NCBI GenBank assembly: GCA_021732785.1
Contig: JAKFUG010000007.1
Location: 1 to 64,000, forward strand
Length of the DNA: 64,000 nt
Direction: 5' to 3'
Source of the DNA: Planctomycetaceae bacterium
Lineage (GTDB): Bacteria; Planctomycetota; Planctomycetia; Planctomycetales; Planctomycetaceae
Shown piece after piece: positions 54,985-63,799 of this stretch. The stretch's first letter is position 1; each line of letters begins with the position of its first letter. The position numbers and the translations under genes were made by a program. Below the pieces are notes generated by a model. That model saw only the letters and a list, made by a program, of their open reading frames with translations, searched no databases and was not told the DNA's origin.

Positions 54985-57900
54985 TTAATGACTGTGCGTG
55001 GCGGTCGATGTTCTTCGCGGAGTGCCGCCGTAGAAGCTGTAGAGCACGGGGATCAGATTCAGCAGGAACAGCGTGAGTGTCATCCCCCCGACCACGACAA
55101 TTGCCAGCGGTTTCTGGCTTTCGGAACCGATGCGGTTGGACAGCGCGGCGGGGAGCATGCCGAAGATGGCCGTCAAAGGGGTCATCGTCAATGGTCGCAC
55201 GAAGCGCTTCATCACATCGCGGAGCGTTTCGTCCAGCGACGTTCCATGGGCCCGGCTGGTGTTGAACGCCGAAACGAGAATCAAGCCATTCATCATCCCC
55301 ACGCCGAGGATGGAGATGAAACCAACACCGGCCGAGATATTAAAGTTTTCGCCCGTCAGGAAGAGCGACCAGATGCCTCCCAGGCAAATGACGACCACGT
55401 TGGCACCGACCGTGACCACGTCCATTAACGAACGCAGTGCCAGATACAGAAGGACGATGATCAGAATCATCGCGAGCAGGGCGACGATCGCCAGGCGAAA
55501 GACAGCTTCCTGCATTTCTTCGAATTCACCCGACCATTCCACACGGTAAGGCGCGGTGATGAGATGCGCGGTTTTCTGTTGCGCTTCGGCAACGGCCCCG
55601 GCGAGATCACGATTGCGAACACTGAATTTGACCGCAATGAGTCGCTGGCCCTGTTCGCGGTAGATGGTGGAGGCACCGTTGCGCGTCAGTGGTCGACCGG
55701 GATCGGGTTCGCCCTGTTCGTTGAGCGACGTCACAAGGTCCCCCAGCCGTCGCCGCGCGATGAGATTCGGCAGCGGTTGATCGAGGGAACCGGTCACCGA
55801 CGGCAGAGGAATGGAAGACCCGGTGGTCGCGAATCCCGCAGCGAGTTCATTCGTCGGCACAACACGATTGCGGAGCACGTCGACCGGGATGTTGAGAATG
55901 GCTTCTTCATCGGAGCGGAGCGCTGCGGGCCAGCGGAGTGTAATGTCGAAGGTCTTTTCTCCTTCGACCATTCGCGTGAATGCTTTGCCGCCCACGGCGG
56001 TTTCCAGGGCATTCTGAACGTCGGCAATACTCACATTCCAGGTCGCGCACTTGTCACGGTCGATGTTCAATTCGAGGTTGGTTTGACCGAGAATGCTGAA
56101 GACGCCGACGTTCTGAATGCCCGGAATGGACGACAGGGTGACGGAGGCTTCGGAAGCAAGTTTCTCCAGTTGTTCGAGATCGGGGCCAAAGATTTTGATT
56201 GAGTTTTCGCCCTTCACGCCGGACAGAGTTTCCATCACGTTATCGCGAATGCTTTGCGAAAAGTTCCAATCCACACCCACAACAGTGTGATCGAGGTCGC
56301 GATCCATCAATTCCACGAGTTCCGATTTGGTACGCGGACGCATGGCTCCGAAGATTCGTGACCATCCGTGGCGTTCGACGACCGCCGGCCATTCGCGTTG
56401 GTCCTTCAGTGGGACAAAAATTTCGGAGTTATAGAAACCGGTGGGATCCGTACCATCGTCGGGGCGTCCGAGTTGCGACAGAACCGCGGTGATTTCCGGA
56501 TAACGCTGCAACCGTGCGCGGGCGAGTGCCGACTTTTCAGCAACCTCCTGCAGCGACACGTTGGCCGGGAACGTTCCACGAACATAGACGTTTCCTTCTT
56601 CCAACTGCGGCATGAATTCGCGACCGAGATATGGCAACGCGATTCCCGTTGCGATCACCATCACGGCAAACCCGCCGACGACCCATGCACGGCGATGCAG
56701 CGCCGCGTCCAGTTGCGACAAGTAGAACCGCTGCAAGCTGCGAACCAGCCAGTTGTCTTTGGCTTCCTTGACGCGCGTCATGAACGTGCGGCAGAGCACT
56801 GGCGAAACGGTGAGCGCCAGCAACAACGCGCCCGCCAAAGCCAGGGCATAGGCATCCGCCATTGGTCCGAAAATCCGGCCTTCAGGACCGGACATGGTAA
56901 AGAGCGGCAGGAGCGCACAAACCATGATCATCGTCGAAAAAAACAGACTTCGCTGGACTTCTTCCGCTGCCCCCAGGATTCGTTGTTCCAGGGGCAACCC
57001 CTCGTCCATGTGCGAACTCAACCGGTGATAGATGCACTCCACCATAATGACCGAGGAATCGACGATAATGCCGAAGTCGACCGCACCGAGGGACAGCAAA
57101 TTGGCCGATTGCCCGCGGAAATACATGATTGCAAAAGCGAACATCAGTGACAGCGGAATGTTCACCGCCACGATCAGCGCCGAGGGAAGATGATTCAAAA
57201 AAATCAACAAAATGAATGTGACCAGAATCATCCCGACGATCAGGTTTTCGTGAACCGTCTCCGTCGTCTTGTTGATGAGATTGGTCCGGTCGTAGAAGGT
57301 TTCCAGCTTCACACCGGGGAGCAACTTCCCCTCGGATTCATTCAGTTCATCCACTTTCTTTTTCACATCGGCTAGTGCGGGAAGCGATTCCTCGCCCTTG
57401 CGTAATAACACCGTCCCCTGCACCACATCCGGGAATTCGTCCCATAGACGTTCGCCTTGGGAACCGAGTTTGTCGGTTCCCAAGGCGTCGCGCTGGGGGC
57501 GACTCAGACTGACACGCCCGGCTCGTGTACTGTGGCCGACGACGACCCCTTTTTCGCTATGGGTCAAACGATCGGGCAACAAGCCCCCTTCCACAACATG
57601 GCTCACCCGCACGGGCACATTGTTCGTCGCCGCGAGCACGATCTGCCGAATTTCCCGCAAACGGACCTGTTCCTGAGCCCGCAAATAATCCCGCGCCGCG
57701 GCAGGATCGTGCTGAGGGACGGTGATGAAGGGATCCTGTCCGCGCCCGAGCAAACCGAGGCCGCGCACGACCTGCGCAGCATGCGGCTGGATCAGATAAT
57801 CGCCGCCGGCATTGGCATTACTTTGCGCAATCGCGGTTTCGAGTTGATCGAGCGTGACTCCGTAACGCCGCAAGCGATCGGGATCCGGCTGCACTTCGTA

Positions 57901-58464
57901 GCGTTTCACCTCACCCCCGAAGCTCACCACGTCGGCAATGCGCGGGACCCGGCGGAATTCCCGCGATAAGGTCCAATCCTGCAAGCCTTTCAAATCTCGC
58001 AATTCATAAATGGGTTGGCCTTCTTCGTCGAGCGGATTGCTGAGCGTGTATCGATAGATTTCCCCCGTGGGTGACGTCGGCGCAAGGGTCGGCGTCACAC
58101 CGGTTGGAAGTTGCGAGAGCGCGAGCCGATTCAGCACTTCAATGCGGGCATCTTTGTTGCTGATCGCATAACTGAATTGATTTCGCAGGTGAGCGAGCCC
58201 AAACAGCGATTTGCTGCGTGTCGATTCGAGCCCCGGCATCCCCGCCAGCGCGACTTCCAGTGGCACCGTCACCTGACGTTCAATCTCTTCCGCCGATGCA
58301 CCGGGATACTGCGCAATGACTTCCACGATTGCGGGAGCCGGGTCGGGATACGCCTCGACGTTGATGTTCACGAAGGCATATCCGCCGACGCAAATCAGCG
58401 TAACGGTCAACAGGAACACCACCAGCCGGTTTTCGACGGACCATTTGACGAGGGCTTCAATCAT
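54985..58464 (-). CDS. Heavy-metal efflux RND pump, CzcA/CusA family
   Basis: 1159 aa, about 100 longer than usual CzcA proteins. It exports divalent or monovalent metal ions by proton antiport as a trimer. Twelve membrane helices; the fourth has VDFGIIVDSSVIMVECIYH, the DFGx3D pattern of the Zn/Co/Cd/Ni branch, not the copper/silver one. PEITAVLSQLGRPDDGTDP and GVDWNFSQSIRDNVMETLSG are HME-RND signatures. Extra sequence is visible in the periplasmic parts, for example around SLNEQGEPDPGRPLTRNG. The C terminus ends THSH. Start ATG at 58464 overlaps the adaptor stop. Confidence 0.93.
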   Translation of the reverse strand: MIEALVKWSVENRLVVFLLTVTLICVGGYAFVNINVEAYPDPAPAIVEVIAQYPGASAEEIERQVTVPLEVALAGMPGLESTRSKSLFGLAHLRNQFSYAISNKDARIEVLNRLALSQLPTGVTPTLAPTSPTGEIYRYTLSNPLDEEGQPIYELRDLKGLQDWTLSREFRRVPRIADVVSFGGEVKRYEVQPDPDRLRRYGVTLDQLETAIAQSNANAGGDYLIQPHAAQVVRGLGLLGRGQDPFITVPQHDPAAARDYLRAQEQVRLREIRQIVLAATNNVPVRVSHVVEGGLLPDRLTHSEKGVVVGHSTRAGRVSLSRPQRDALGTDKLGSQGERLWDEFPDVVQGTVLLRKGEESLPALADVKKKVDELNESEGKLLPGVKLETFYDRTNLINKTTETVHENLIVGMILVTFILLIFLNHLPSALIVAVNIPLSLMFAFAIMYFRGQSANLLSLGAVDFGIIVDSSVIMVECIYHRLSSHMDEGLPLEQRILGAAEEVQRSLFFSTMIMVCALLPLFTMSGPEGRIFGPMADAYALALAGALLLALTVSPVLCRTFMTRVKEAKDNWLVRSLQRFYLSQLDAALHRRAWVVGGFAVMVIATGIALPYLGREFMPQLEEGNVYVRGTFPANVSLQEVAEKSALARARLQRYPEITAVLSQLGRPDDGTDPTGFYNSEIFVPLKDQREWPAVVERHGWSRIFGAMRPRTKSELVELMDRDLDHTVVGVDWNFSQSIRDNVMETLSGVKGENSIKIFGPDLEQLEKLASEASVTLSSIPGIQNVGVFSILGQTNLELNIDRDKCATWNVSIADVQNALETAVGGKAFTRMVEGEKTFDITLRWPAALRSDEEAILNIPVDVLRNRVVPTNELAAGFATTGSSIPLPSVTGSLDQPLPNLIARRRLGDLVTSLNEQGEPDPGRPLTRNGASTIYREQGQRLIAVKFSVRNRDLAGAVAEAQQKTAHLITAPYRVEWSGEFEEMQEAVFRLAIVALLAMILIIVLLYLALRSLMDVVTVGANVVVICLGGIWSLFLTGENFNISAGVGFISILGVGMMNGLILVSAFNTSRAHGTSLDETLRDVMKRFVRPLTMTPLTAIFGMLPAALSNRIGSESQKPLAIVVVGGMTLTLFLLNLIPVLYSFYGGTPRRTSTATHSH

Positions 58465-59942
58465 GGTGATGTCGCCTTGGCAGCATTGGCAGCAAACGCA
58501 TCCGAAGCGAGCAATTCCACCAGTTTGGCGTGCAGTTCAATGGTTCCGGACGTAACCACAAGATCACCGGCAGCAATCCGGCTGCCTTCCGATTCCTGGG
58601 GGGCAACCGACAACCAGGCTTCGGTCGGCGTACGACGGAGGACGGTCACCCACCGACGTTGCAGTCGCGGATGATCGCGCTCCGTTACGACCAGAACGCA
58701 GGTGTCTTCGCCTTGATCGATGAGCGCACTCAGAGGCACGCTGACCGCGGGAGGGGTGCCAGGCATTTCCACCATAGCGCGGGCGAACTGCCCAACGCGT
58801 AACTGTTCGCCAGGGTTCTCGACCCAGCCGGTGACGATCGTCGTGTGCTGGTTGGGATCGATCACATGCCCAATCGTTTCGATCCGGCCGCTACATTCGG
58901 GGCAGCTTGGTTGGTTCGGGAAAACAATCTGCCACCGTCGCTCCTCGGGGGGAAGTCCCAGCAGCTTGGGCAAATCATCCTCATACAAATTCGCGAGGAC
59001 GCCCAACCGGCTAAGATCGGCGATCTTAAACAGATCCAGCGTCGGATCGACGATATCCCCGACGGTGAAGTTCTTTTCGAGCAGCACGCCGTCGCGCGGG
59101 GCGTGAATGTCCATTTCCGCCCAACGTTGATCACGTTTGAGATTGGCCGGTTCTTCATCGGCTTTGGAAGCTCCGTCCGACTGCTGCGCTTTCAGATGCA
59201 GGCGCATGGCTTCTTCTTCGATTTCGACCAGTTCGTGCTCATCGATGTGCCAGGAACGGAGGGTTCGCCGCCAGCGGGAAACGGAGATCAGGTCCGATTC
59301 ATACAGCCGCTGCATTTCATCAATGGCCCGCTGAGCCACCGTCCCTTCGCCGGCACTTTTCAGTTTCTTCAACAAGGATTCATGCAGCCAGAGATTGCAG
59401 AGCGCATCGACGAGATCGCTTTTCTTCTCGCCGACTTCACGACTCCAGATCACCGCGAGGAGTTGTCCGCGGATGACGCGATCGCCCACTTGAATCTCGC
59501 GCGTTCCCGCTTCGGGCCCGGGGTGCGTTGCAGCGCGGGCCGATGCGTTCGCTCCCGCTGCGGACAGATATCCAACGGAGATGACTTCGCCCGTAAACCG
59601 CGATTGAACATGCACCAGCCGGCTTGGATCGAGCATCAACTGTCCGGACAGTCGCAACGGCAATGCCGAAGTCATTGGCCGGGCCGCAGTCCACTCAATG
59701 TGCATCCGTTTGATGAGGTCCGGATCGACATCAACGGCTTCGGGTGCATCGCGCGCCACAGAAATGACCGGAACAACGGGCGCAGCAGATTCGACTTGGG
59801 ATACACGAAAAGAATCCAGATGATCCCAATACAACCATGTCGTTCCCACTCCGATGGTGGTGATCATCGCTACGATGCCCCACCGCCGCCAGCGCGAACG
59901 GGAGGGAATTGTGACCGGTGCCTCATCCATAATTGTCGTCAT
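58461..59942 (-). CDS. RND efflux periplasmic adaptor (CusB/CzcB/HlyD type)
   Basis: 493 aa from ATG at 59942. An N-terminal membrane anchor (WGIVAMITTIGVGTTWLYW) is followed by SRFTGEVISVGYLSAAGANA (barrel-sandwich half), a helical hairpin of about 110 residues (SDLVDALCNLWLHESLLKKL to EEEAMRLHLKAQQ), then DIHAPRDGVLLEKNFTVGDI and VPLSALIDQGEDTCVLVV. It links pump and outer-membrane channel. A CPECSG motif in the C-terminal half is unusual and could bind metal. No TolC/CzcC gene adjoins it; the channel must be encoded elsewhere. ATGA overlap with the pump gene. Confidence 0.9.
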   Translation of the reverse strand: MTTIMDEAPVTIPSRSRWRRWGIVAMITTIGVGTTWLYWDHLDSFRVSQVESAAPVVPVISVARDAPEAVDVDPDLIKRMHIEWTAARPMTSALPLRLSGQLMLDPSRLVHVQSRFTGEVISVGYLSAAGANASARAATHPGPEAGTREIQVGDRVIRGQLLAVIWSREVGEKKSDLVDALCNLWLHESLLKKLKSAGEGTVAQRAIDEMQRLYESDLISVSRWRRTLRSWHIDEHELVEIEEEAMRLHLKAQQSDGASKADEEPANLKRDQRWAEMDIHAPRDGVLLEKNFTVGDIVDPTLDLFKIADLSRLGVLANLYEDDLPKLLGLPPEERRWQIVFPNQPSCPECSGRIETIGHVIDPNQHTTIVTGWVENPGEQLRVGQFARAMVEMPGTPPAVSVPLSALIDQGEDTCVLVVTERDHPRLQRRWVTVLRRTPTEAWLSVAPQESEGSRIAAGDLVVTSGTIELHAKLVELLASDAFAANAAKATSP

Positions 59943-60343: not shown

Positions 60344-60826
60344 TCAGCTACCACGCACTTCGGCGGCGATCAATACTTCGGCAATCTCTACGGCGGCCGA
60401 GACGTGCCGCAATCGATCTCGAAAGACTCCGTCCGCCAGCAACCGCATCAGAAACTCCGATTGGCGCTGCATCACTCGACGGTTCGTTCCCGGTGTCTCG
60501 TAGGGTGCGAGACACAGCGCAACGATATCCGTCGGTTCGCGGTCCAGGCTGTCGAATTCGATGGGCAGTCGGCATACCGCCACAATCGCAATCGGCCTGG
60601 ACAACGCGGCCGATCGGGCATGCGGGATCGCCACGCCTTGTCCAATCCCCGTCAAGCCCAACGACTCCCGTCGTAACACCTCTGCCGATATCACGGGCAC
60701 GTCCGCCATCGTGATGTGGCCATCGTCTGCGAGTCGTTCCAGAAGTTCCCGAATGATCTGCGATTTTTCAACCGCTGGGCCGCCATCGAGCAGCCCGGTG
60801 CTGACGATCCAGTCCGTGAGTTTCAT
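60344..60826 (-). CDS. PTS EIIA-like nitrogen-regulatory protein (PtsN type)
   Basis: 160 aa from ATG at 60826; the longer frame runs into the regulator gene. The phosphorylation site is His69 in GIGQGVAIPHARS, and VCRLPIEFDSLDREPTDIVA is the next conserved strand of the fructose/mannitol-type EIIA fold. No EIIB or EIIC is present, which points to a regulatory role like PtsN, which influences potassium uptake and stress systems in proteobacteria. Located 73 bases after the sigma-54-type regulator on the same strand, probably one operon. Confidence 0.85.
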   Translation of the reverse strand: MKLTDWIVSTGLLDGGPAVEKSQIIRELLERLADDGHITMADVPVISAEVLRRESLGLTGIGQGVAIPHARSAALSRPIAIVAVCRLPIEFDSLDREPTDIVALCLAPYETPGTNRRVMQRQSEFLMRLLADGVFRDRLRHVSAAVEIAEVLIAAEVRGS

Positions 60827-60899: not shown

Positions 60900-62249
60900 T
60901 CAGAGATCGATTCCCAACTCTTCAATTTTTCGATACAGGCTCGATAAACCGAGCCGCAACCGGCGTGCGGCTTCGCGCTTGTCGGGCCAGTTACGGAGCA
61001 CGCGCAGAATGTGGAGCCGCTCATAATGACGCAACGCGGAACGAAGTTCATCGGTGTCCGGCAACGGCTGACTTCCGCCGATGAGATCCGGCGGCAATTC
61101 CTCCGGACGAATCTGCGATCCTTCGCACATCATCACGGCCCGTTCGATGGCATTATCGAGCTGCCGGACGTTTCCCTTCCAGTTCGCAGAGATGAGGAGG
61201 CGGATCGTTTCGCTGGTCGCACCGGTCACGCCCTGCCCCATCGCGCGGCTGTGTTTGGCAACGAAGAATTCGACCAACTCGGGAATATCATCCAGCCGTT
61301 CGCGTAACGGAGGAATGCAGATCTTCACTCCATCCAGGCGATAGAACAGCGCTTCATCAAATCGTCCTTCGGCAACTTCCCTGGCAAGATCGCGCGTGGT
61401 CGCCGCGACAATGCGGGCATGATGTTTCTGCGGATCGGTCGCACCGAGCGGAGTGAATTCGCCATGTTCGATCACGCGCAGCAATTTGGCTTGCGTTGAA
61501 AGCGGGAGCTGCGAGACCTCATCGAGAAACACCGTTCCTTCGCCGGCCTGACGGAAGATGCCGGCCTGATCGCCGCTGCCCGGCGAAGCGGGCGTCTGGC
61601 CACCGAAGAGCTGCAGTTCGAGCAACTCTGCCGGGCGGGTGGCGCAATTCGCGGTGAGGAACCGTTCGTTCCGTTTCGGCCCCCAGCGATGAATCGTGCG
61701 TGCGGCAAGCTCCTTGCCCGTTCCGGACTCGCCGCACAACAGCACATTCGCCCCCGTCACGGCGACTTTACGCGTTGCATCCTGCAATTCGCGCACGGCG
61801 CGACTGGAGCCGATCAATTCATCGCTGTCGTCCCGACGGGCGAGTTCTTTCCGCAGGGTCTGATTCTCTTGCGACAGTTCCCGGTATTGAAACAGACGCT
61901 GCAATTTGTTCGCGAGATCGTCAAAAATGACCGGCTTCACGAGAAAATCGAACGCCCCGGCTTTGAAGGCCTCGACGGCGTTTTCCACAGTCGCATACGC
62001 CGTGATGACGAGTCCCGAAAGGTTCGCGTTGAACTGCAGCAATCGCCGCAGCAACTGCACGCCGTCTCCATCCGGAAGCTGCACGTCACAGATGGCGACC
62101 TGGAAATCGCGCTGGCGGATGGCGTGCAACGCTGCGGTGGCGGTCCCGACGGCGATCACATCGTAGCCTTCCTCGGCAAGAAACTCGCGCAGCGAAGTCC
62201 GGATGATCTCTTCATCTTCGCAAATCAGAATTGAGCGGGAGAGTTTCAC
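60900..62249 (-). CDS. NtrC-family AAA+ response regulator lacking GAFTGA
   Basis: 449 aa. Receiver: acidic pair in ICEDEE, Asp55 in AICDVQLPDGDG, Lys in FLVKPV. AAA+ domain: Walker A GESGTGKE, Walker B GTVFLDE, and RLDGVKICIPPLRERLDDIP. The C terminus has a Fis-type helix-turn-helix (DKREAARRLRLGLSSLYRKI). Where NtrC has the GAFTGA loop that contacts sigma-54, this protein reads LFGGQTPASPGSGDQAGIF, so the motif is absent. It may not remodel sigma-54 holoenzyme. ATGA overlap with the kinase gene makes the pair a two-component system. Confidence 0.9.
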   Translation of the reverse strand: MKLSRSILICEDEEIIRTSLREFLAEEGYDVIAVGTATAALHAIRQRDFQVAICDVQLPDGDGVQLLRRLLQFNANLSGLVITAYATVENAVEAFKAGAFDFLVKPVIFDDLANKLQRLFQYRELSQENQTLRKELARRDDSDELIGSSRAVRELQDATRKVAVTGANVLLCGESGTGKELAARTIHRWGPKRNERFLTANCATRPAELLELQLFGGQTPASPGSGDQAGIFRQAGEGTVFLDEVSQLPLSTQAKLLRVIEHGEFTPLGATDPQKHHARIVAATTRDLAREVAEGRFDEALFYRLDGVKICIPPLRERLDDIPELVEFFVAKHSRAMGQGVTGATSETIRLLISANWKGNVRQLDNAIERAVMMCEGSQIRPEELPPDLIGGSQPLPDTDELRSALRHYERLHILRVLRNWPDKREAARRLRLGLSSLYRKIEELGIDL

Positions 62250-63631
62250 GGTACGGTCAATTCCTGCGACACGGGCTCGGGATTGGTTCGATGTGAAGGT
62301 AACGCATCGGCACGATTCCGCAAGGCCTCATCGGTCAACCGGACAGAAAACGTCGTCCCGGCAGGAGACGTTTCCGTGAGTTCAATGCGGCCTCCCATTT
62401 CCTGTTCCACGATATTCCGGCACACGAAAAGTCCCAGTCCGGTGCCGGTTTCTTTTGTCGTGAAGTACGGCTGGAAAATTCGTTCACGATGGTGGGGACT
62501 GACGCCCACGCCGGTGTCCCTCACATCCACTCGCAGCCAACCATCGATGATAGACGTGCGAATCTCGATGGTCCCCCCTTCCGGTGTCGCGTCCATCGCA
62601 TTGAGAATCAGGTTGAGAAAGACCTGCACGAGTTGGTCGCGAATCACGCACAGCGGCGGGACATCGTCCACAAACGACGTCACAATCGTCTTTCCTTTTT
62701 TTCGCTTGTAATACTTGGCGATGCTTAACGCGGAGTCAATCATGCTGTGGACATCGCCCGGCGCTTTCACATTGGTCGCCGGGCGGCTGAAGTCGACGAG
62801 TTCGCGCAAGGTGCGTTGAATCCGCCGCAGTTGGTCGTCCACCATCATCAACCGTTCGCGCGTGTGCTCGTCGATATTGCGACGATTCAGCAATTGCACC
62901 AGCGAACTGATGGCCGCCAACGGGTTACCGACTTCATGCGCGATTCCGGCGGCCAGCAAACCAAACGCCGCCTGCTTTTCCTGCTGCACGATCATCGCCT
63001 GCGATTCCTGCAACTCACGTGTCCGCGCGGCAATGCGTTCTTCGAGATGCGTCTGGTTCTGCTGCAAGGCGACATTCAATTCCCGCAGCCGATGACTGGC
63101 ACGCTTCAACAGCCCCGCGAACGATGTCCCGGCCCAGGTCACCCAGCCGATGACCACGGGCGTCAACACCAGCGACGTCGTTTCCTCCCAGTTCTGCACG
63201 CCGTGAGTCATCGCCACGGTGGCATAGCTCAACGTGTGGAACGCGAATGTCGAATACGTGATCATCGGCGTGAAGCGGATCGCACACACCAGGAGTGACA
63301 GAATGTAATAGAAACGGAACGGACTGAGCGCCCCCGTATCGAAATGGCAGAGCAGTCCGATGAAAACCGCTTCCATCGCCGACGTGAATAACGGGTAATC
63401 GCTGAGGAACAAACGGCCGCGAACACTGAAGTAGGTGTCGCAGAGCGCATAGCCCGCGCCGAGTGCCAGAATGGCGTTCAGCGGAAATGTCGCCGAGCCA
63501 CTGCCAAGAAAGTTCACCAGCACATAGCCCACCGCGATGCCAAACCATCGGATGCGTACCGTGATCGCCTGGGCTTCAAGATCCCAGTCAAATTCGGTCT
63601 GGGGAATGGTCCTTGCGGTCACCACCGGCAT
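62246..63631 (-). CDS. Membrane sensor histidine kinase
   Basis: 461 aa from ATG at 63631; TTG 63679 would add 16 residues. Five or six hydrophobic segments fill residues about 27-185, then a coiled coil (RELNVALQQNQTHLEERIAA) leads to the H-box GIAHEVGNPLAAISSL. The ATPase domain has LNLILNAMDATPEGG (N-box), DTGVGVSPHHRERIF and TGTGLGLFVCRNIVE (G-boxes). NtrB/AtoS-like. The membrane part has no known sensor domain, so the signal is unknown. Partner of the regulator that overlaps it by four bases. Confidence 0.9.
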   Translation of the reverse strand: MPVVTARTIPQTEFDWDLEAQAITVRIRWFGIAVGYVLVNFLGSGSATFPLNAILALGAGYALCDTYFSVRGRLFLSDYPLFTSAMEAVFIGLLCHFDTGALSPFRFYYILSLLVCAIRFTPMITYSTFAFHTLSYATVAMTHGVQNWEETTSLVLTPVVIGWVTWAGTSFAGLLKRASHRLRELNVALQQNQTHLEERIAARTRELQESQAMIVQQEKQAAFGLLAAGIAHEVGNPLAAISSLVQLLNRRNIDEHTRERLMMVDDQLRRIQRTLRELVDFSRPATNVKAPGDVHSMIDSALSIAKYYKRKKGKTIVTSFVDDVPPLCVIRDQLVQVFLNLILNAMDATPEGGTIEIRTSIIDGWLRVDVRDTGVGVSPHHRERIFQPYFTTKETGTGLGLFVCRNIVEQEMGGRIELTETSPAGTTFSVRLTDEALRNRADALPSHRTNPEPVSQELTVP

Positions 63632-63799
63632 CCTGTGAGACGCGCTGGTCTCGTCGTCGGCAATCCGAGCGACCGCCAAACGGCACTGGTATTATAGGAC
63701 CGTACGACCCACAAGGCACGCGTGCGCGTTTCCTGCTCGATTCACGGTCCGGCAGACGCTTTCATGCGAATCATTCGGGCTCAACGATGCCTTGGATGA

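Follow-up and report, generated by a model that had tools for sequence, protein, structure and literature searches.

A planctomycete NtrC-type response regulator without the GAFTGA loop probably acts as a DNA-binding switch independent of sigma-54

The window analyzed here, a stretch of 64,000 nt from a contig of a Planctomycetaceae bacterium, carries on the reverse strand a gene for a GAFTGA-less NtrC-type response regulator (60900..62249, GTG start, 449 aa). It is preceded, with a 4-base overlap, by the gene of its partner histidine kinase (62246..63679, same strand), which has HisKA and HATPase domains. The regulator has the REC-AAA+(PF00158)-Fis architecture of NtrC-type enhancer-binding proteins, with Pfam matches to Response_reg (residues 7-116), Sigma54_activat (145-310, 168.7 bits) and AAA_lid_14 (316-395). 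Its receiver domain (residues 6-120; 61890..62234, reverse strand like all features of the gene) contains the phospho-acceptor D55, and its C-terminus is a Fis-type helix-turn-helix (residues 400-449; 60903..61052). Residues 6-448 align over the full length to 4l4u (E 3e-84), and on this basis the DNA-binding end is intact, as had been claimed in the original prediction. The numbering of the AAA+ residues relative to PspF was fixed by alignment with the E. coli protein. Walker A (GESGTGKE, residues 173-180; 61710..61733), in which K179 corresponds to PspF K42, and Walker B (FLDE, residues 241-244; 61518..61529) are intact in the window protein. In the L1 loop (residues 217-229; 61563..61601), LFGGQTPASPGSGDQAGIF stands in place of GAFTGA; the slightly longer segment GGQTPASPGSGDQAGIF (residues 216-232; 61554-61604) lies inside the interval to which the loss had originally been assigned. 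At sensor I, Asn is lost (PspF N149, here T285; 61395..61397). The arginine-finger motif RxDxxxR has become DxAxxxR (residues 298-304; 61338..61358), with R162 replaced by D298 and D164 by A300, so that only R304 (PspF R168) is left. Sensor II R362 is kept and is followed by Q363, where PspF has E228 (61161..61166).

An orthologue of the regulator (best E <= 1e-145) was found in 147 of 170 genomes of the same family, which we take to be Planctomycetaceae because three of its genomes share sequence with the named contigs of Planctomyces sp. (L074), Planctomycetaceae bacterium (L075) and Fuerstiella sp. (L076); in the other 23 genomes the best E was 3e-136 or weaker. The resulting 149 orthologue rows represent 146 distinct proteins, 7 of them shorter than 430 residues, and the loop is covered in all. 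The strict pattern G[AS][FY]TGA, which was used for all family and outside totals, occurs in none of these 146 proteins. The nearest remains of the motif are GAFAGA (L044, L162, L166, L168) and GAFPGA (L029, L157), followed by GAFPGS (L281), GSFPGA (L158) and GAFSGA (L156). Since the motif is missing from all 146 proteins, its absence is not a sequence error, the concern for which an alignment of orthologues at the loop had been proposed as a check, and a pseudogene is ruled out by the same 146 proteins. Thus, the predicted loss of GAFTGA from the L1 loop is borne out, and the loss of the usual sigma-54 contact that it implied is supported, GAFTGA-bearing orthologues being found only outside the family.

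The other PF00158 domains of the same genome (6.7 Mb, 99.63% complete) served as controls. There are 22 matches, of which the 14 strongest (>= 131 bits) are enhancer-binding-type domains. Eight of these 14 have the exact GAFTGA, four have GSFTGA, GAFTNA, GAFTDA or GSFTSA (altogether 12 other GAFTGA-type regulators), and two lack the motif, namely the window regulator and a second NtrC-like protein encoded outside the window (L014; 982-2484, reverse strand; G000:C34 32465-33964). The active sites of the latter look dead: it has EVCFVGP at the phospho-acceptor strand, a Walker A motif without Lys (GETGSGLD), LLLDN at Walker B and Asp in place of R168. Among 22 family loci of this second group, GAFTGA is found in none and the Walker A Lys is missing in 17. 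Eight matches from other families (f2, f4-f7), which may be paralogues, have an intact-looking Walker A, loop and finger.

The loop is eroding, and other parts of the protein remain conserved. Among non-redundant sequences (55 from the family and 34 from the first 39 outside orthologues described below, all of them GAFTGA-bearing), no other 13-residue window of the family protein varies as much as the L1 core (2.77 bits vs 0.69 outside), and the helix-turn-helix is more conserved in the family (0.51) than outside (1.11). The family loops are 6-14 residues long and comprise 114 different strings in the 146 proteins. With pS near saturation and all values accordingly rough, pN/pS over 541 family pairs was 0.35 for the loop, 0.11 for the rest of AAA+, 0.02 for the Walker motifs and 0.04 for the helix-turn-helix; outside the family, where only 8 pairs were available, it was 0.05 for the loop and 0.11 for the helix-turn-helix. 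In the AF2 model, pLDDT falls below 50 at residues 221-223 in the loop and 393-399 in the linker, and residues 221-230 have a mean pLDDT of 63 vs 86 in a GAFTGA-bearing orthologue (L056).

The diagnostic residues of the receiver and ATPase domains have fared differently. Kept throughout the family are D55 (145 of 146, with one gap), the Walker A K179 (146 of 146) and R304 (145 of 145 readable sequences), and position 363 is Gln in all 142 readable sequences. The position of the arginine finger, R162 in PspF, is never Arg: the 145 readable sequences have Q (98), E (20), H (19), D (4), L (2), S (1) or A (1), with one gap. At sensor I, Asn is present in a single protein out of 146. Of the 146 proteins, 135 retain the Walker B Asp-Glu pair and 11 have D or E changed, vs 0 of the first 39 outside orthologues, a difference that is not significant (Fisher p 0.12, uncorrected for phylogeny); none of the remaining 52 outside orthologues has altered acids. 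The original statement that the Walker motifs are intact thus holds for GESGTGKE and FLDE, yet it is incomplete, for the trans arginine finger is gone and, less diagnostically, so is the sensor I Asn.

How telling these two losses are can be judged from 123 AAA+ domains with a GAFTGA-like loop, a looser pattern that counted GAFSGA as GAFTGA-like and GAFTDA, GAFTNA and GAFTSA as lacking. R162 is present in 122 of them, the exception being the family member with GAFSGA (L156), but the sensor I Asn is missing in 14; therefore, the arginine finger is the telling loss. The Asn is also missing in 4 of the 12 GAFTGA-type domains of the window's genome, and its loss alone is not diagnostic. According to the available part of the PspF study (PMC3419264), the true arginine finger is R162, and ATPase activity dropped drastically and hexamers became constitutive on substitution of R162, D164 and R168; R162A lowered the KM (90 vs 250 uM), and the sigma-54 interaction that remained was not productive. 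The R162 variants given there are A, E, K and H; Gln, the commonest family residue at the finger (98 of 145), is not among them. By analogy with PspF, ATP binding and assembly with little hydrolysis are to be expected of the family protein.

The kinase has been retained together with the regulator. Both were present in 37 of 59 relatives and both absent in 22, some of these genomes being incomplete, and the pair co-occurs even where the two genes have separated. In the family, the genes are apart in 77 and adjacent in 58 of the 135 loci with enough upstream DNA (11 were too short); outside it, 36 of the first 39 orthologues have the two genes side by side. In three kinase matches (G008, G019, G029), the matched stretch contains a single in-frame stop. 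Residues 40-447 of the kinase show a weak but long match to a model of the redox-sensing ActS/PrrB/RegB kinases (80 bits, cut-off 350), a possible hint to the signal. RpoN (PF04552) was detected in 56 of the 59 relatives and in all 52 near-complete ones; the loss of the motif is thus not a consequence of losing sigma-54. Directly downstream of the regulator gene lies a gene for a PTS EIIA protein (PtsN/FruA-like, IPHAR motif; 60344-60826, reverse strand, start chosen by hand). It was rejected as a part of the system, as tblastn across 47 loci (L023-L069) placed it beside the regulator only in the window's own locus. Further downstream (54985-59942, reverse strand) are an RND-pump-like gene (54985-58464) and a membrane-fusion-like gene (58461-59942), both named by eye, for which tblastn gave no match beside the regulator in other loci among L023-L069.

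The analysis was expanded to a class-wide sample of 397 genomes, in which the regulator was present in 203, including 90 outside the family; the genomes with matches belong to families f1, f2, f3, f6 and f8. The first 39 outside orthologues, which come from 38 of the 90 genomes and a named contig (L077) and are mostly top scorers, all have G[AS][FY]TGA, and 31 have the exact GAFTGA. Among the remaining 52 the motif was found in 36 and missing in 16, so that, altogether, 75 of 91 outside orthologues keep it and 16 do not. These 16 have GAFPGA, GSLAVA, AAFSTT, GAYGGA, GAYAGA, other replaced, short or deleted loops, or, in two cases, GAFTSA, which may still work. All 16 keep the arginine finger and have a kinase match in the same stretch; sensor I is Asn in 14 and His in two. 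The idea that the arginine finger was lost before the loop was rejected, given that all 16 outside losses keep the finger. A single outside orthologue (L415) combines a kept loop, GAYTGA, with Ser at the arginine-finger position.

A tree was built from 34 rows of the family, 91 from outside it and 3 of paralogues, with the loop and the three diagnostic columns left out. It united the family in one clade (SH-aLRT 100), as did a separate tree of 55 family rows and 34 of the first 39 outside rows; both came from rapid searches, and the branches leading to the paralogues are long. On the former tree, the GAFTGA state must have changed 6 times or more (7 with GAFTSA taken as a loss), the arginine finger and sensor I twice each, and position 363 once. 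Because regain of the motif is unlikely, the GAFTGA changes are read as losses, and the loop appears to have disappeared several times independently among relatives of the same class. At least 6 such changes in one orthologous regulator suggest that the GAFTGA-bearing ancestor already had a job independent of sigma-54.

GAFTGA-less enhancer-binding proteins have been known chiefly as scattered cases (TyrR, DhaR, HupR, VpsR, some NtrC and NtrX). They are a known kind of regulator, and it is the recurrent loss that is the interesting part here. E. coli TyrR resembles the window regulator in its deleted L1 motif, kept Walker A and B, lost sensor I Asn (Q) and GNVRQL, and differs in its retained arginine finger (FREDLYYR) and another N-terminal half (26% identity). 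E. coli DhaR shares the absence of GAFTGA, the replacements of Asn by Thr and of R162 by Ser and the kept Walker A Lys, but has also lost D164, R168 and the Walker B pair and has another N-terminal half as well (24% identity). Brucella abortus NtrX (5m7n/5m7o/5m7p) is likewise a REC-AAA+-Fis protein with RQL and without GAFTGA and the sensor I Asn, and 5m7o superimposes on the regulator with Z 33.5 over 424 residues (rmsd 21.1); however, its FREDLFHRL keeps R162, D164 and R168. Aquifex NtrC1 (1ny5, 4l4u), with the same domain build, and PspF, with the same AAA+ fold, share Walker A/B and R168 with the regulator, but both possess GAFTGA, the sensor I Asn and the R162 finger. In the available part of PMC10274813, the GAFTGA-less NtrC proteins of Rhodobacter capsulatus and Caulobacter are reported to act on sigma-70 promoters, and ATP binding, but not hydrolysis, is essential for the former; their alphaproteobacterial deletions are of other sizes, by which they are set apart from the window regulator by description and not by sequence. 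The accessible text of one study (PMC3162934) names TyrR, DhaR and HupR as sigma-70 dependent and mentions about 110 recovered homologues with minor GAFTGA deviations beside 4971 accepted ones, and that of a 2025 survey of sigma-54 regulons (PMC12316311) states that only GAFTGA-bearing proteins were retained. In the accessible portions of the open-licence full-text literature we found no description of this regulator family or of recurrent GAFTGA loss in planctomycetes.

Promoters and operators were sought as well. A search for -24/-12 promoters, which had been recommended along with the original prediction, was run upstream of the kinase gene, where -24/-12-like sites were not in excess: for 32 upstream regions from outside the family and 59 from within it, the best-site scores did not exceed those of mononucleotide shuffles, in a comparison uncorrected for phylogeny. 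An operator search by exact dyads and a palindromic EM model revealed nothing common to different groups. An AATTG-N5-CAATT block was dropped as a candidate operator, as only a single set of close relatives carries it, and the EM motif was dropped because it largely covers the start-codon region.

Taken together, the regulator is likely to be the output component of a two-component pair that is still intact but has abandoned sigma-54, and to work now as a non-sigma-54 DNA-binding switch. The kinase gene, the phospho-acceptor, the ATP-binding Lys and a strongly constrained DNA-binding helix are kept, and the usual marks of a sigma-54 activator, GAFTGA in L1 and RxDxxxR, are absent; a PF00158 domain without usable GAFTGA, a kept ATP-binding Lys and a conserved helix-turn-helix are the marks of GAFTGA-less AAA+ regulators. 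The kinase would phosphorylate D55, and the AAA+ domain would bind ATP and serve as an oligomerization scaffold that hydrolyzes poorly or not at all. The oligomer would then bind DNA via the Fis helices and recruit or block RNA polymerase of the sigma-70 family, at non-sigma-54 promoters and in the manner of TyrR, DhaR or Rhodobacter NtrC. Control would be exerted by phosphorylation and, probably, by ATP binding. The sigma-70 part we infer from exclusion and analogy, and the targets and the sign of the effect, activation or repression, are likewise matters of inference. Of the originally suggested modes of action, a TyrR-type sigma-70 regulator offers the closest analogy at hand, but neither a target promoter nor an operator emerged from the searches upstream of the kinase gene and for shared dyads. 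Among the observations that count against this explanation are the Walker B pair kept in most of the family, since some hydrolysis could matter, as has been reported for Caulobacter NtrC (PMC10274813), the prevalence at the finger of Gln, a residue outside the PspF variants named above, and the one family member that reads GAFSGA.

The alternative that fares best, if still rather unlikely, is that the regulator chiefly represses its targets or competes with other regulators and is not a sigma-70 activator. Such a role would suit a DNA-binding oligomer poor in hydrolysis, and the GAFTGA-less Caulobacter NtrC is suggested, in the available part of PMC10274813, to compete with CtrA and thereby repress sigma-70 promoters; however, none of the present data distinguish the sign, and annotations list both TyrR and DhaR as dual regulators. 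More doubtful is a regulator that still hydrolyzes ATP, with R168 serving as the sole arginine finger, and puts the hydrolysis to use at sigma-70 promoters. The retention of the Walker A Lys, of R304 and mostly of the Walker B pair would fit it, and Caulobacter NtrC needs both Walker A and Walker B residues (same source), but R162 is the genuine finger of PspF, its substitution drastically reduces ATPase activity (PMC3419264, available part), and Walker B acids are altered only inside the family, albeit without significance in the first comparison. That the regulator still activates sigma-54, via a different surface or an unusual loop contact, we regard as very improbable. RpoN is present in the genome, and the full REC-AAA+-Fis fold is there, with 381 residues aligning to the sigma-54 activator 1ny5 (Z 34.6, rmsd 12.2 over more than one domain). 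Against it stand the many loop strings and lengths with no conserved alternative motif, which also make the originally proposed "different contact" unlikely, the position of the loop as the most variable window, and the accompanying loss of R162, a residue whose substitution left PspF without productive sigma-54 interaction. A decaying gene without function is scarcely credible: the loop, finger and sensor residues were indeed lost in one clade, but no listed family orthologue row has an internal stop, the helix-turn-helix and Walker motifs are under strong constraint with the phospho-site kept, and co-occurrence with the kinase outlasts separation of the genes.

For a switch that left sigma-54, a two-stage escape from an ancestor already partly independent of it is a tentative scenario that we find about as easy to doubt as to accept, leaning slightly to doubt. 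The loop would break first with the finger kept, as in at least 5 outside losses; an older family would then lose the finger and the sensor I Asn as well, and what remains would be a non-hydrolyzing DNA-binding ring, bound to ATP and constitutively assembled. If so, sigma-54 activation was a dispensable part of the role of the GAFTGA-bearing ancestor. A single kinase-regulator pair here offers at least 6 inferred losses, the intermediate loops GAFAGA, GAFPGA and GAFSGA, and GAFTGA-bearing relatives of the same class, which makes it directly testable in which order the parts decayed, what the arginine finger contributes and whether dual-mode sigma-54 activators are common. For annotators the case carries a warning, since Pfam assigns the label "Sigma-54 interaction domain" well above the cut-off to a protein in which the interaction motif is gone.
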